Below are positions 43,263 to 53,352 of a stretch of DNA of 64,000 bases, one piece after another. The first letter of the stretch is position 1, and every line of letters begins with the position of its first letter. The translations under genes were made by a program, and so were the position numbers. The notes under the pieces were generated by a model, which saw only the letters and a list, made by a program, of their open reading frames with translations, had not been told where the DNA came from and did not search any database. Source of the DNA: Agarophyton chilense (taxonomy: Eukaryota; Rhodophyta; Florideophyceae; Gracilariales; Gracilariaceae). Where the stretch lies: contig JARGXX010000004.1 of assembly GCA_030374765.1 (NCBI GenBank), forward strand, positions 1,674,001 through 1,738,000, written 5' to 3'.

Positions 43263-43412
43263 ACATTAGGCGGGGATCAAGCGAGCAATAGAGAAAGAGC
43301 GGAAAAACTTCCTGTTATTTACATAAGCGTCTTACATACGTTAGTTTTCTGTGCCTAATGTCTGAAAATTTCAAAGAATGAATCACGTCAACGTTTAATC
43401 GAAAGTGATCTA

Positions 43413-43613
43413 CAGTGCCCGAAACTCCTATACGACACCCCCCTTTTTCTGGTATTGTGGGGTACTGCGTCAAAAGTTTTCAATGAAACTGGACCAGCTC
43501 GTCTCATTCGAACAATTATATAAAAGAGCCAATCCTCATCAGAAATCACTAATTATTTCATTACTTGTTTTGAATTCGGCTACCATAGACGGCGAAATTC
43601 CTATACGACACTT
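43413..43613 (+). repeat. Left terminal inverted repeat of the Tc1/mariner element
   Basis: About 200 bases match the complement of 44757-44958 at about 85-90% by eye, with a transposase-binding-like direct repeat at both ends. Confidence 0.88.
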
Positions 43614-43724
43614 CTCAGTAAACGGTCAAGAGCGACCCAAATGTGTTTCTTGTAGCTCTGCACTTTCTCACAGAGGTATAATCCGTCCTTCTGCGTTGCC
43701 CAAACACCCTTTCAATGAATAAAA

Positions 43725-44719
43725 ATGCCGAAAACTCTTCTCCTGGCAGAAAAAGAGCGAGGTTACATTAAAGCCATGCACGAGCAGAAGATATCTGTTA
43801 ATGCAATTCACAAGCGTAAAAAAAGGTCTCGCGACGTCATTGCACGATATTTGAAGGACCCCGAGAACTACGGAAAGCGCGCCATCACAGTTGAAAACAG
43901 CAAAATGACCCAACAAGACCGTCTTCATTTGATTTGAGAAGCATAAAAAGGCCATTAAACAGCTTTTCAGCTAAAGAAAGCTCTCAACATGCCGGTATCA
44001 CAACGACGTGTGAAGCAAGTGATCTCTTCTGCCCCATTTCTTCAATACAAAAAGATGAAACGGGCCCCAGTTTTGACTGAATCGCACAAATGGAATCGTC
44101 TAAACTAAATGCGGGAGAGGTATGCATGGAATAAGAGAGAGTGGGGTAAAATAATCTTTTCGGATGAAAAGAAGTTCACCTCGGACGGCCAGGATGAGTT
44201 CGCGTTTTACTGGCATGATCTACGACGCGATGAAAAGGTCATATCAAAACGCCAGAAAGGAGGTGGTGGCGTAATGGTACGGGGTGTATTTTCAGAGCTT
44301 AGGACGAGCGCTTTGGAAATTCTTTTTGGTAACCAAAATGCAAAGAAGTACACTGAGACGCTTGAAAACCTCCTGTTACCGTTTTCCTGCGAAAAATATC
44401 TGGAATCCTGGACATTTCAACAAGAAAATACTGCTATACATACCGCGAAACTTACTAAGAGTGGTTTGAAGATCAAAATGCTAAAGTTATGGACTGACCT
44501 GCTCAGAGTCTTGACTTGAATCCAATTGAGAACGTACGGAGCATACTTGCTAGACGTGTTCACGCCAATGGACGGCAGTTTGAGAATCTGGAAGAGCTGA
44601 AAAGTTGTGTGTTAGAAAAATGGGGTAATAGTAAGACCCAAGAGTGTTATAAACTAGCGCAAAGTATGCGCAAACGTTCCAAGGTGCTGGAGAGTAAAGG
44701 CAGTAAGATAGACTACTAA
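43725..44719 (+). pseudogene. Tc1/mariner transposase, broken
   Basis: The N-terminal part (43725-43937) is a helix-turn-helix DNA-binding region (LLLAEKERGYIKAMHEQ, then SRDVIARYLKDPENYGK). The catalytic part has IIFSDEKKFTSDG with the first Asp. The second motif reads FQQENTAIH, where the family has QQDN, so the second catalytic Asp is replaced by Glu. The third region is SLDLNPIENV. A stop at 43935-43937, a decayed stretch to about 44108, a frame change between about 44470 and 44516 and a stop where DWPAQS is expected (about 44486) show that it is inactive. The end is at 44719. Confidence 0.88.
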
Positions 44720-44756
44720 TATAATCAACATCGTTCAGAAGAGATCTAAGTCTTTG

Positions 44757-44958
44757 CACTGTCGTATAGGAATTTCGCCGTCTATGGTAGCCAAATTCAA
44801 AACAAATAATTAAAAATTTTGTGTTTTCTGATGCGGATTGGCTCTCTTATATAATTGCACGAATGGGACAAGCTGGCCCAGTTTCATTTAAAACTTTTGA
44901 CGCAGTACCCCCACAATGCCAGAAAAAGGGGGGTGTCGTATAGGAATTTCGGGCACTG
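44757..44958 (-). repeat. Right terminal inverted repeat of the Tc1/mariner element
   Basis: The partner of the left repeat, containing GTCGTATAGGAATTTC at its inner (44761) and outer (about 44935) ends. Confidence 0.88.
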
Positions 44959-45007
44959 TACCTCTCTTAAGAACGGCCTTGACAAAAGCAATCGTTGAAA
45001 AGCATGG

Positions 45008-48000
45008 TCAGGCCGCTGTCACCGGAAATGGACTTCTATCATCTCGGATGATATCTGTTAGTCCATCCTTGTACACGTTCAAATTCCATCGAACAATTTG
45101 AGCTGCTTCCTCTACATATTTGTTCATCGGCACATCGGAGACATCATACCCGAAAGGATTTCCTAACTCTTCCGACCATTTTTCGATACCTACTACCCCA
45201 TAGGCAATGAACCCAATCCAAAGAATGGTCAACCACCCACTTGTTTCTACAAGACCGAGAGGCAACAACAATATCCAAATAACCAAAAAGATTCTCAAAT
45301 GCTGTACATATCCGAAAGGCATGGGGATATTCACTATCTCCTCACAGTCTATTGCTGCGTTCTTCAGCAAATGAATGTAGTACATGATGCTCCAATGTTC
45401 ATCGAAGCTCGCTGGATCTACTTTCTCCTTTGAATTACGCCAATAATCGCTTTGAATGATATAGTGATGCATTACATCTAGGCAGTAGTCCGACTTATCA
45501 GGTGCCCTGAGCAACTTCTCCGTATCTTCTTCGCTTAGATACTTTCTGAATTCTTCCACACATTCTTCACGCCGAAGTTTGGCCATCATAGCTACAGAAA
45601 AGGCAGTCAAATGTGCAGCAAATCGTTCCTGATCCTGCTTATGCCATTCATCTCCATAGTAGCTTTCGAAGAATCTGTTGGATAGAATTCGAGTAGTTCC
45701 CAAAATATGGCTCCAACTTTGAATGGCAGATACATATCGCCCATGACTTTCATAAAGGCGGAAACCAAGAAGAAGAAACAATGCAAATCCGACGTACTCC
45801 TTCACAGCGTCACAGACTGCTATTCTTGAACAGAACCACAGTCCACAATCAGATTCTACCTCATCAGCAAAGGGAAATGCCTTCGAGACGCCCCACGCAA
45901 TCAAGAGCGTGACAACAGTCCAGAGTAGAATTGCACCAGTTTGAATTGGAGAAAAGGTGTGCAGTGCCAAACGAATGAATTCGCGCGCCATCGGTATGCA
46001 AGATTGCTTCTCGAGCTTCTTCGGCGGCTCTTTCCAGCCTTCGGTCCAATAGGAATTGATTTCAGATGAATGTACAAACGTTTCCAAACGTGGCTTGCAG
46101 TGCTTTTCAACAAAAATGATGTCAGACACGATTAAGTCTGCCATAGCGGTAAGATCCAAGTCGTTCAAATCGGTTCCAAACGGAAATTGGAGTTCTTTCG
46201 CGATCTGATACATACTGGGGAGGAAGTTAGTATTTGTTATTGCATTTCATCAGCAATAGTATGCGTAAAGAGGTCGCTATGCTTACCCGAGCACTCCATA
46301 AGCAATAACTGGGACCCACAAAATCGTGAACCACCCTGGCATATTCAAAAGTTCGAAGACTCAAGGTCAGTTATTCTGGAAGCATGGAAAAAGGACGAAA
46401 GAATATTTTCCGAGCTGCAACAAACCTGAATATTCTGCTAGAGCAAAAGGAAGGATCAAAAACCATATTCCCATGAAGCAATTGAGCAAAATTAGAAATC
46501 CGGGTGCAATATCAAATGACCGTAAGAACTTTGACTGACGAATCATTTTTTCCAGTGCTATGATCTCCATTTTAACGAAAGCAACTCCACTTCCATATAC
46601 CACAGGTTTTCGTAGTCGGTCCGAGTGGTGCAAGTAGACCAAAAAGTACGAGCGGAGTACATCGACGCAGTGGCTGACCATGCTATCGGCACACTGAATT
46701 TTCGAGATGTCGTGGTGTGACAGCAGACCCTTAACCTCTTGGATATTACGGGAGTTGCGAAGTTCGCTCTTGAGCACCAAGGGAATTGCTGCAATGTGTG
46801 ATAGAATTCTGCGGTGATCTCCATCATGAATAGAACCTTCAGGAAACAATGTTTGGAATTGTACTGCGAGAGTATGGCAAGAGGCACGTAGACGAGCTCC
46901 CCAAACACCTCCTGCAGAGATGTATCGAACAAAGGCGGCCTGAACGAAGAATCCAAGAACCATAAATGCTTTTCGAAAAAAACACAAAAAAACGAGTAGT
47001 CAGCAAAAACTAAAGGACAATACGCCAAACCTATTGTTGAAAATTTTGACAGCAAATCATACCTGCAAAAGAAACATATGTGACCACAGTGGTATTCACG
47101 ATGAAGTTTGATTTCCACCATCTCGCAACAACGGTGCTATCTCTAGCAAAGTATGATATGCCAGTTGCCAATATAGTCCATGCTGTGACAAAGAGTAGAA
47201 TCCACCAGGGAACAGATCGAAGAAGATGAGAGTACAAGTGTGGCTTGATTTTTTTCTCATCAGGGCTTTCGAAGTGCAGGCACGGACCTTCGCCAAAGGA
47301 CAAAGAGACATTACCATCTGCCTCGAAGTGGGCAAGGGTATGCTCATGTTTCACTTCCTTTTCTTGAAGAACAGCGCCTAACTGAGGGTCCCCATCAAAA
47401 GGAGTTGATTGAGTGTGATGCATCGCGCCCCATTTGACACTATCCACCCCCTCTATGACCGAATTTGCTGCGTCGCTACACATTTTGTTCAAGGGGATGT
47501 CAAGCTCGTCGTTCCCATAAGGATCTACCAGCTTGGAGGCCAACTCCTCAAGCCCAAGCACACCGAATGAAATGACCGGAGCCCAGAGAATAGTAAAGAA
47601 TCCAGTGCTCGGGGCCATGGCTAGGGGAAGGAGAAGCAGCCACAGAATGGCGAATATATGTTGATGCTGTGTATAACTGGCAATGACCGGATAGCGTTTG
47701 ACACCAAATGCGCGCGATATTGTTTCACGAATTGTTGAGATGCGAGAAATCATGGACACAGCCACGGAACAGCTAACCCTGTTGTTTGGAAGATGTTCAA
47801 AACCATCTCTATGGACGTTATCTTGAATCAAAATGTATGCCTCGATAGTATGAAGCAGATACTGTATCGAAGATTTGCTGGAGAGCATTCGACTGCCGTC
47901 ATCATCAGAAAGTAATCCTTCGTCACTCAGACTTCGATCAATCGTCAAGAGCTCGTTCCGGAAACAGAGAGGAACTTGAATGATGTGTGCAACTATTCGC

Positions 48001-50786
48001 TCTTTGTCATTCTCATGAAAGTAGCCATCTTCAAAGCATTGCACGATTTCAATGGCCAAGTTTCGAAGATTCATTTCGATGTCGAAGATAAGCATGGCAC
48101 CTTCCTCGTATCTTCCGATCGCATCAGAGGCACGGAAACTGAGGATCATAAACAATGCAAAACCGATATTTGCCAATATAGATACTTCGATATCTATTGG
48201 ACTGCACCAGGCGCCACAAGCATTACGTCTCGATTCATCCCATGTGAAAGAAAATCCATAAGACAGAAGAACTGCAATGACAGACCACAATAGAACCAGA
48301 GCCATGCCTCGAACAGAAACAGATGGTAAAGAGGCCACCATTTTTTTCAGAGACCCAAAGGGTGTAGGGTTTTTGTCGTGGCCGGCGGTCTTAAATGACA
48401 GCAGAATTCGTTTAACGAGACCAGCAGACCTGGGATCATTGACCGGTTTATCTTCATTGAGAGAGTTGTCGATAGCCTTGGGCTTAAACGTGTCTCGAGA
48501 ATAGGTTGATGGACGTACAAAGTCAGCCGCTCCTCCCAATGACTCGTTGTATAATGCATGCACGGAAGCTCGGATTTCGTCACACAGCAGGTCAAGTGGT
48601 ATATCTTCCTTGTCATAACCAAAGGGATCGGCGAGATCGCTTCCAATTTTGATGAGATTAATTATTGAATAACTGATGGGGAAAATGTAGAGGAAAGAAA
48701 GGAAACCAGCAAATTGAACTAGCGATAGTGGAAGAAGTGCCAACCAAAAGAACGTAAATAGCTTCAAATGAGTAGTAAAAGACTCTGAAATGGGAAATTT
48801 GCGGATTGATTTGCACTCCTGTATGGCTGTTTCCAAAGCCCAAAGGGTATATTCAATAGTATACACGGAGGCGTTCAGTGGGGAGGACTCAATCTCAGTG
48901 GCTTCCGCATGAGCGCAATCAAGACTGTTCAGATATCCATAAACGACATCTGTCGCATGTGCAAAGAAATCATCTGTTTCGTCAAATGCTGCAATGTCCT
49001 GAGGTGATAGGAAGCTCTCCATCACTGAAGCGTTCCTGTTGTTGCGCAAATCCTGCTTGGCACCGTACGCTAGTGCTACCAAATGAGAGAAAAGACGCTC
49101 TCGGTCTCTGTGATGCCAAGTTCCACGCTTAGTAGTTATGGCGAATTGGAGTGCAAGTTCTTCAATGCAAGTTCTGACCTTGCTCTGCCAGAGTTGCAAC
49201 GATCTCCAATAGCGGCCATATGCGACATTGAGCCAGAATCCTAGAGTCAAGAAAAGTCCGAGACTTACGTACGAAGTGATTGAGGAATCGACTGGGATGT
49301 AGACACACCACCATCTGCAAGCTCCATTTTCGTTCTCCCCTCTCGCACTGTATGTGATGAGCAAGAGAAAAGCAGCCCAAGCCATGGCAACAAAAAGATA
49401 AGTGAGCAAACCTTTGCTGAGACTGCCTAAACGAAACGAACCGAACCGAGCCAAGAAGCTTTTCTTGGAAGCTGGCTGGGTTCCTTGTTCTGATTCGCTC
49501 AGAGGCTTCTCCAGCCATTTAGGAGTATCATGGTCCTTCTTTACCACCGTGGCAATATCCAGACGATCACGAGAATAGGCGTCCAAGGTTTTGAGAGCAG
49601 CTTCAGCGGAAAGCTGATTGAGTTTGATGTCTTGCATGTCAAAACCAAAAGGATCACTGAGAGCTTGGCCGATAGTGAAGAGCATACCGACACCATAGGA
49701 AGTAAGAACTGCCCAAAGGGGTGTGAACCTTAAGTAAAAAGACGAACGAGCAAGCAGGCAAGAAAGAAGGAGATGACGGAAAGGGTTGGGGTTGAGTCAG
49801 GATTCAGGATATTCGTCGGAGTTTGTGGCAAAACGGGACAAAAACGATAAATACATGGCAACTTACCAACCACTACTTTGCACGAGAGCAAGCGGTAAAA
49901 AGAACATCCACAAATAGAGGAAGACAGTCAGATGAGTGACATAGCCTCTAGAGGGACTCGATGTGGCTATCTTAACCAGATCGTTGGCGTTAAAATCAAC
50001 AGCATCTATCATGTCCATGACCAAATAGCGGACACCCCATCCAGCAGGCGTTTTGTCAGCTGCGAGCAATTTGAACGAATGGGGGGCATCATCTTCAGAC
50101 GCACTGATATAAGTCCTAACAACCCTCATACAATGCACATGCATGGAATCTGCTTCGAGCATTTGCTCAATATCGCTTTTATGAAGAATATCTGCGACTT
50201 GAGCTGCTTCCTTTTCCCCTCGAAGGGTCATTTTCAGTGCGATGGGGCAGGCGACAAGATGTGCTACCAGACGCTCAACATCGGCACGGTGCCAAGTGCC
50301 GGAGGGGTATGCCTGACGGATGTGGCGGGTGATTTGGCGAAGATTGGCGCCAAGGCTGGACCAATTCAACTGAGCGTCGAAGTAACGATTGCTCGCCTCC
50401 CGAATGAAAAAACCGAGCAAGACGAAGAGCGCCCATCCGACACCGTAGGAAACTGAGGATGATACAGAAAGCCTGGAGGTCCAAAAGGGAACCGAGAACC
50501 AGCTGAATTGGGTGTCAGCCAATGCAAAGGCGATGAGAGTAACGGCGATGCTCCATGCGGTCTGAAAGAGAAGGATAGTGTATGGAATGGTTCTGAGCAC
50601 GGAAAGGAGGGCGGAATAGTCCGCTTGTCCTATCTCGGCACGTCCGGAGCCTAGTTTGCCGGTGAGGGCGGCGCTTCTCAAACGAAGTGCCACGACTGTG
50701 TGCTGAAAGCTTAGGTAGGACGTGCACGGCCCAGGGTCTTCTGGAGAGCGTTGAGCTCCGAGGGTGGGTATGTATTCAGCTGCCAT
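45008..50786 (-). CDS. Five-module tandem bestrophin-like anion channel, one 1794-residue chain
   Basis: Five exons are 50786-49867, 49728-47063, 46968-46426, 46335-46287 and 46214-45008. The four GT-AG introns (138, 94, 90 and 72 bp) keep frame exactly, total 5385 nt. The start ATG has a good context (AACCATGGC). The protein holds five successive bestrophin modules, about residues 58-370, 405-710, 775-1065, 1140-1430 and 1483-1770. Each has a first membrane helix, a second with an F-x-x-L-G/S-F motif, and H-x-x-D-x-x-R in a cytosolic helix (for example WHRADVERLVAHL at 165). A late helix pair follows LPLAL-like. The C-terminal motif is DPFG at 332, DPFG at 674, DPYG at 1042, FPFG at 1403 and NPFG at 1745. 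Known bestrophins are single-module pentameric chloride/bicarbonate channels; in algae some act in the thylakoid. Five modules per chain suggest a covalent pentamer (inference). No carbonic anhydrase or other fused domain is seen. Confidence 0.9.
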
Positions 50787-51768: not shown

Positions 51769-53352
51769 ATGACGCTCAATCTCCGCGAAATCGAGCGCGG
51801 TATCGGTATCGACCTGTTGAGACGCCCCGTGCTGACCGCCACCGTCAACGCCTTCCTGCTGCGCTTGTTCGTTGAGGCGTTTCTGCAGCCAACGGATGAA
51901 GACGACCAAGACGCCCACTCGACCGCCTACAAGCACCAAGATGACGTTGGCTGCGCCGACAGCGCCCTGTCCGAGAAGCTGGCCGCCTCCGCCATCTTCT
52001 TGCTGACGCAGCTCGTGCAGCTCATCGGCCTGGCAGAAAGCGCCGTGTGGGCCGTCCTTGCAGTCGTGTACAAGGCCATCAAGCTACCGCGCGTTTACGG
52101 CTTCGAAAAGCTCGTGTTGGACCTGTTGGTGCTGCTGGCCAAACCGTCCGTGTACTATGTGAAGAAGACGTTGCGCTTCCAGTGTCGCCCAGGTCAAAAG
52201 GTGCCACACCTGCAGCTCACGCGATCGGGCTACGGTCGCATGGTTATCACCGTCGTCAGTAGCACCGAGTCGCTTACGCGCGACACTCGCGCGTTGCTGC
52301 AGATGCTGCGCTACGTCAACTACAGCACCGTGGCGTTTTGGACGGAGGACTCGGTCGTCATGGTGGGCGTCAACAAACCCGTGGAGCGCGCCCTGTGCCA
52401 TCTGGGTAGCGAGCCCATCAGGATCGACCTGGGCTGGCACAAGGACGTCGTCGAGGGCACCAACTTCAAAATAGAGGCTGTATTCACCAAGGAACACCTG
52501 CGCGTTGTGGAGAGCGGGATCCAGTCGGTCGGTCGCCGCGCTGTCATTGTGGAGCTGTGCGCCGAGCTGCGCACGACCAACCTGGAGCTACTGGTCAAGT
52601 CCATGGGACAGTTTGCGGCCGTGTGCGAGGCGTACGAGCGCGGACTGCGCCTGTTCAACGGCAAGCGCGTCACCATTTACGTGGTGGGGCTGGCGCTGTG
52701 CGTGGCGCTCATTGTGTTCTACGATGGGCTGCCGGGGCTGCTGCAGCCGTCCGTGGACGTATTGCCACTGGCCATCGGCGCCTTCACGCTGTGGATGACG
52801 CTGGGCAAGAGCGCCGCTCTGGGCGAGACGGAGGAGGAGACGATTTTCACACCGCATACGAGCGAGAATGTGCTGCTGGCGTACCACGGGCTGGCGCGCA
52901 TCGAGCCGCACGTGCGCAATGTGTGCTGGGTGCCGGAGGTGCATCGCGAGCCGCAGGCGCCCGATGTTGCCGACGGTGGCGACGACGGCGGCGAAGGCGA
53001 CGGCGGCGTGGACTTCGACTACGACGAACAACACGACAAACCATATGAGCTCAGGCGCCGGCGCAGCGGCGTGGACGGGTCGCTGTCCGTGCTGGAGGCA
53101 GCCGTGTGCCTCAGCATCTTCGAGCACTACGGCAACTTCGTCAAGTGGAAAGGATCGCGTCTGCGCATCGACCTGTACCACGTGCGCGCCGGGCCCACCG
53201 TCGGGCTGGCGCATATTGTAGGCGTGCAGCGCATACGCAGTCTGGCCGCGATGCGCCTGCACGAACACGCGCCGCTGGTGCGTCACCTCGGCGCCCCTGC
53301 CCCCGCCCACCCCGCGCTGCCTCTAGACCATGTCGCCGATGCCGCCGTGTGA
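51769..53352 (+). CDS. Unknown membrane protein, 527 residues, GC-rich
   Basis: A single uninterrupted ORF has a strong G/C bias at third positions, unlike the bestrophin gene next door. Hydrophobic stretches at about residues 70-105 (AIFLLTQLVQLIGLAE, VWAVLAVVYKAI) and 112-130 suggest a membrane hairpin. Another pair lies at about 305-345 (VTIYVVGLALCVALIVFYDG, then PLAIGAFTLWMTLG). Between them is a soluble region of about 170 residues. After 345 come a cytosolic-looking part, an acidic Gly/Asp stretch (about 400-425) and a basic ELRRRRSG segment. I recognise no family. The start ATG at 51769 follows a C-rich leader. The divergent arrangement with the bestrophin gene might mean shared expression. 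An overlapping frame on the other strand exists (52588-53310) but looks like a GC shadow. Confidence 0.65.
   Translation: MTLNLREIERGIGIDLLRRPVLTATVNAFLLRLFVEAFLQPTDEDDQDAHSTAYKHQDDVGCADSALSEKLAASAIFLLTQLVQLIGLAESAVWAVLAVVYKAIKLPRVYGFEKLVLDLLVLLAKPSVYYVKKTLRFQCRPGQKVPHLQLTRSGYGRMVITVVSSTESLTRDTRALLQMLRYVNYSTVAFWTEDSVVMVGVNKPVERALCHLGSEPIRIDLGWHKDVVEGTNFKIEAVFTKEHLRVVESGIQSVGRRAVIVELCAELRTTNLELLVKSMGQFAAVCEAYERGLRLFNGKRVTIYVVGLALCVALIVFYDGLPGLLQPSVDVLPLAIGAFTLWMTLGKSAALGETEEETIFTPHTSENVLLAYHGLARIEPHVRNVCWVPEVHREPQAPDVADGGDDGGEGDGGVDFDYDEQHDKPYELRRRRSGVDGSLSVLEAAVCLSIFEHYGNFVKWKGSRLRIDLYHVRAGPTVGLAHIVGVQRIRSLAAMRLHEHAPLVRHLGAPAPAHPALPLDHVADAAV

Follow-up and report, generated by a model that had tools for sequence, protein, structure and literature searches.

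Can a single gene encode every subunit of a channel whose known relatives are assembled from five separate chains? The question is raised by a gene of the red alga Agarophyton chilense (Gracilariaceae), which lies on the minus strand (50786-45008) of a 64,000-nucleotide stretch of contig JARGXX010000004.1 (assembly GCA_030374765.1, positions 1,674,001 to 1,738,000), referred to here as the window. Bestrophins of solved structure are homopentamers, each subunit having four helices (PMC9076864). The window gene encodes five bestrophin modules in one chain, and we consider it probable, with good confidence, that this single chain folds into one pentamer-like ring around one pore.

An earlier sequence-only reading had proposed that five exons join in frame into a protein of 1794 residues. 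This is borne out: the spliced exons form a 5385-nucleotide (nt) open reading frame with a single terminal stop, and the four introns, of 138, 94, 90 and 72 nt, are all GT...AG, with a branch-point-like TACTAAC upstream of the CCCCAG terminus of intron 4. Exon 2, which is free of stops, holds two whole modules and two part-modules. Junctions 1 and 2 are joined at identical residues in the homologue P0004 (GEZJ01002761.1, whose accession has the form of a transcriptome record). The window gene is also present in another annotation, P0001 from Agarophyton chilense, in which the modules are 100% identical and module 2 is partly absent; with part of a module missing from the deposited annotation, the five-module form is easily overlooked in databases. 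The exons are as follows:

49867..50786, minus strand: exon 1, with the start codon, residues 1-306 and 2 bases of codon 307; bulk of module 1
47063..49728, minus strand: exon 2, with the end of module 1, modules 2 and 3 complete and the start of module 4
46426..46968, minus strand: exon 3, with the middle part of module 4
46287..46335, minus strand: exon 4, 49 nt, with a portion of module 4's last hydrophobic stretch
45008..46214, minus strand: exon 5, with the end of module 4, module 5 complete and the stop codon

The Pfam profile PF25539 (Bestrophin_2) matches five stretches of the 1794-residue chain (E 4.7e-173), which are the five profile hits that the sequence-only reading had anticipated. 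Searched singly, every one of the five modules is significant, with E values from 1.8e-30 to 1.8e-44 and scores of 107-153 bits where the cut-off is 27, and their pairwise identity is 25-32%. The classic bestrophin profile, PF01062, stays below its cut-off in the window protein, leaving only a trace in module 2 (11.7 bits against 24.2), so the bestrophin profile that had been named is to be understood as PF25539. In alignment A1, PF25539 matches 28 of 28 homologues; a point on the other side is that PF01062 does match one of the 28 (E 0.00032). A genome-wide scan with PF01062 returned zero matches, but also zero in its controls, and is therefore uninformative. The C-terminal motif P-F/Y-G starts at residues 333, 675, 1043, 1404 and 1746, and the five positions originally given for it (332, 674, 1042, 1403 and 1745) are those of the preceding residue. 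Two other PFG triplets, at 763 and 1692, are extra occurrences and not the C-terminal motif. An NCBIfam search with modules 2, 3 and 5 gave no match, nor did an Rfam search of the window at gathering thresholds. The modules are placed as follows:

49539..50639, minus strand: module 1, residues 50-370, crossing intron 1
48513..49463, minus strand: module 2, residues 396-712
47409..48401, minus strand: module 3, residues 750-1080
46070..47261, minus strand: module 4, residues 1130-1441, crossing introns 2-4
45044..45982, minus strand: module 5, residues 1471-1783

The order of the modules recurs in homologues, and their number is not exceeded there. A full-chain search found 29 long homologues; the named ones, titled ‘unnamed protein product’, ‘hypothetical protein’ or ‘Bestrophin/UPF0187’ in the databases, include proteins from Gracilariopsis chorda (64%) and Gracilaria domingensis (62%), and the guess that other algae have multi-module bestrophins was correct. 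None of the 29 has more than five modules, the six matches in P0005 arising because its module 5 is split, and in all 30 proteins (the 29 and the window protein) the best-matching window modules stand in consecutive order. Two further searches, in which scoring was confined to the 7998 and 7992 candidates with the most words in common, added 45 proteins for a total of 74 related proteins; each protein search was restricted to a length range, so relatives with another number of modules may have escaped.

With position-specific profiles at E <= 1e-5, at least two positions are spanned by 61 of the 74 proteins, all 61 in consecutive order from module 1 to module 5 and none with more than five. 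These 61 proteins are not 61 genes: among them are P0001, three Agarophyton chilense paralogues and numerous exon pieces, some apparently from one gene (P0031 and P0057, both with a longest contig of 10887; P0034 and P0068, both with one of 20402). P0055, a distant single-module protein with two matches at this threshold, is excluded from the 61. Many homologues are recorded as single proteins that extend from module 1, part of module 1 or module 2 to module 5. Shared end and start points within module 4 hint at a gene structure common to the homologues: matches end at profile position 66-73 in 16 of 75 proteins, with window intron 2 at about 68, and start at position 266-275 in 12 of 75, with window intron 4 at about 265, although these starts may merely be the first methionine after an intron.

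Other five-module genes, for which a homology search had been proposed, were found both among these homologues and within the same genome. The assembly (79.76 Mb, 135 contigs) was scanned with PF25539, all counts being lower bounds. At least 30 matches were obtained, 26 of them in five tandem loci with five modules each and 4 in two single-module genes on contig C13:

Window gene: tandem locus
C4:591-597k: tandem locus
C4:706-711k: tandem locus, with one extra fragment match
C16:268-273k: tandem locus
C75:231-237k: tandem locus
C13:1038k: single-module gene L036, divergent
C13:847k: single-module gene L037

By tblastn, the four other tandem loci are co-linear with the window protein, and the identity of their main stretches to it is about 61-62% (L032), 44-53% (L033), 43-53% (L034) and 33-35% (L035). 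The last three are annotated as P0006, P0005 and P0026, respectively.

The tree was computed from 58 full modules, out of 121, that belong to 14 of the 30 proteins, with nine single-module rows and three outgroups added. Each of modules 1 to 5 forms one clade (support 100/100, 100/99, 100/100, 100/100 and 100/100), so the five modules predate the divergence of the sampled genes and have escaped homogenisation from then on. Eight of the nine single-module rows, including L037, branch beside module 5 (96/86), and L036 falls outside. The root is unsure owing to long branches, and the tandem could have derived from such a single-module gene, or the single-module genes from the tandem.

The pore neck also distinguishes the positions. 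When module 3 is aligned to KpBest, the neck residues of KpBest fall in GIAIAIFLGF, and all five window modules have three hydrophobic neck residues at i, i+4 and i+8 on the pore helix:

50409..50441, minus strand: neck helix of module 1, W118, V122, F126
49236..49268, minus strand: neck helix of module 2, L463, L467, F471
48135..48167, minus strand: neck helix of module 3, F830, M834, F838
46949..47075, minus strand: neck helix of module 4, F1194, M1198, F1202, split by intron 2
45761..45793, minus strand: neck helix of module 5, F1536, L1540, F1544

Among the homologues, counted as related rather than independent rows and omitting P0001 (the same gene) and rows gapped at any neck column, the first neck site is occupied by Trp in 13 of 13 rows of module 1, by Leu in 43 of 44 of module 2, and by Phe in 44 of 46, 21 of 27 and 38 of 42 of modules 3, 4 and 5. 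The second residue is Leu in 38 of 42 rows of module 5 and Thr in 15 of 27 of module 4, an exception to the hydrophobic pattern. The third is Phe in 12 of 13, 40 of 44, 44 of 46, 26 of 27 and 36 of 42 rows of modules 1 to 5, while single-module proteins have F-L-F in 7 of 7. With the first neck residue set by position across homologues, the gating ring would be asymmetric in a conserved manner. The proposal that each position evolves separately is thus upheld by the five position clades, by the consecutive order in 61 of 61 proteins and by the position-dependent neck residue.

AlphaFold2 (AF2) models with three and two whole modules place these confidently relative to one another (predicted template modelling score, pTM, 0.80 and 0.79). 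The bestrophin fold was recovered from both, the match lists being filled by one module each (P0029 module 1 and window module 2). The linkers, from the PFG motif to the first transmembrane helix of the next module, are 83-107 residues long and contain stretches of low predicted local distance difference test (pLDDT) values in both models. Right behind module 3, in the linker to module 4, both models have a beta-strand pair in an otherwise almost all-helical protein (window 47337-47384, residues 1089-1104; P0029 residues 1056-1069).

Taken with five modules per chain and conserved position-specific pore residues, this confident placement of neighbours makes one chain, one channel the simplest reading. 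The protein is likely to be a naturally covalent pentamer of five fused subunits, whose order and number were fixed before the genes diverged and whose positions then specialised, giving an inherently asymmetric pore whose gate has an obligatory Trp at position 1 and Leu at position 2. AF2 predicts a defined packing of neighbouring modules. In the ring, module 5 would meet module 1, and the linkers would share one side of the membrane with the two termini. We favour, as a guess, an anion-conducting pore, and its first neck ring would consist of Trp, Leu, Phe, Phe and Phe instead of five equal residues. The pre-assembled, asymmetric one-chain pentamer of the sequence-only reading is supported; from module 5 to module 1 we infer the closure of the ring, as we do its conduction. 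With its subunits fused, a channel would always contain exactly one of each, and every position would be free to specialise. The analogy is with the four-domain voltage-gated Na+ and Ca2+ channels, in which the subunits of a symmetric channel became fused in nature and then underwent position-specific change; these are four-fold and belong to an unrelated family, and we know of no natural five-fold case.

Several observations weigh against this reading. At the looser threshold of E <= 0.01, the module order is kept in 56 of 63 proteins and broken in seven (P0016, P0023, P0024, P0025, P0055, P0070 and P0071), of which all but P0055 are read as weak extra matches on or beside a short module-1 stub. 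Five modules of more than 200 profile positions each are found only in P0002, P0003, P0006, P0007, P0009, P0026 and the window protein; P0005 joins this set only if its split module 5 is accepted, and P0005, P0006 and P0026 are paralogues from Agarophyton chilense itself. The AF2 models cover the contact between modules 3 and 4 only in part, those between modules 4 and 5 and between modules 5 and 1 lie outside them, and the high pTM may partly reflect AF2 memory of bestrophin pentamers. P0004 diverges from the window protein in module 4 past GWFTI with a frame change, its tail being, as judged by eye, exon-5 sequence in a different frame, and among the sequences compared there is no transcript of the window gene itself.

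Of the alternatives, the one that survives best, though we consider it unlikely, is that several five-module chains associate and the rings mix modules from different chains, by domain swapping or by a chain bridging two pores. Linkers of this length, with their low-confidence stretches, could let a chain reach into an adjacent ring. A linear polymer would, however, tolerate other module counts, whereas the count is five at all tandem loci found and never higher in the long homologues, and the position-specific neck residues suggest a fixed place in the ring for each position. We regard it as quite improbable that the ring forms without conducting and serves as a membrane scaffold, regulator or receptor: the Trp conserved in all 13 module-1 necks could plug the pore, but the third neck residue is Phe nearly throughout, as it is in KpBest, BEST1 and VCCN1 (PMC8496536, PMC9076864). 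It is about as improbable that the protein is a polyprotein whose linkers are cleaved, the five single modules so released forming a 1:1:1:1:1 heteropentamer; the low-pLDDT stretches of the linkers could be accessible to a protease, but subunits released in this way would presumably need neither a fixed order nor a fixed number. That the gene model is wrong, and that adjacent single-module genes have their own transcripts, can be practically dismissed, given the two whole and two part modules in stop-free exon 2, the two junctions shared with P0004 and the many homologues given as single proteins reaching module 5.

How does the proposed one-chain pentamer compare with known systems? A sequence search of the PDB returned KpBest entries at the top (E 1.3e-17), with bestrhodopsin and VCCN1 also matching. 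KpBest, a bacterial bestrophin homologue from Klebsiella pneumoniae (PDB 4wd7, 6iv*), forms homopentamers from chains of one module each and has a single type of neck, I-I-F (PMC8496536), whereas the window protein has five different modules in one chain. KpBest is a Na+ channel, in which a change of the middle neck residue moves selectivity toward Cl- (PMC8496536). The thylakoid chloride channel VCCN1 (PDB 7ek1-3) is a symmetric homopentamer of separate chains, with Leu as its middle neck residue and an inter-subunit pair, Glu195-Tyr332 (PMC9076864). With five modules in its chain, the window protein falls outside the symmetric homopentamers with one module per chain. Bestrhodopsins (PDB 7pl9), which match in sequence and fold, are likewise very large algal proteins with a bestrophin domain, but their tandem part is rhodopsin, and they form pentamers (PMC12291454). 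The rhodopsin domain is absent from the window protein, PF25539 being the sole significant Pfam family over its 1794 residues.

The Ca2+-activated animal bestrophins, BEST1-4, are set apart by PF01062, which the window protein does not match at cut-off. Their Asp-rich tract, the Ca2+ clasp, follows the NPFG motif. No such Asp-rich run stands behind any of the five window motifs, which are followed by FDMQDIK, YDKEDIP, NDELDIP, TDLNDLD and YDVSDVP (for the animal tract, see PMC2650406). The closest single-module relatives found, with one module per protein, are P0045, P0047-P0050, P0052, P0053 and L037. Red algae are described as having bestrophin homologues while lacking orthologues of the BST1-3 group (PMC11142338). 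The bestrophin family is already known; a five-module, one-chain bestrophin was not described in the literature searched, of which coverage was partial.

Such a gene makes testable what becomes of a symmetric pore when its five positions evolve alone. It is also a concatemer supplied by nature, whose neck residues could be altered one by one, something that is hard to achieve in homopentameric bestrophins. That a single alga has five or more of these genes may, speculatively, bear on red algal photosynthesis or osmoregulation.

The gene has two neighbours in the window. On the plus strand, 51769-53349 holds a 527-residue open frame that is divergent from the bestrophin gene, lies about 1 kb from it and has no Pfam match at E <= 1. 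On the other side, 43403-44968 is a transposon-like element with terminal inverted repeats (one block of 152 nt that is 90% complementary and one of 60 nt that is 92% complementary) and a weak trace of the transposase family DDE_3 (E 0.0045, below cut-off); its end lies 40 nt past the bestrophin stop codon.

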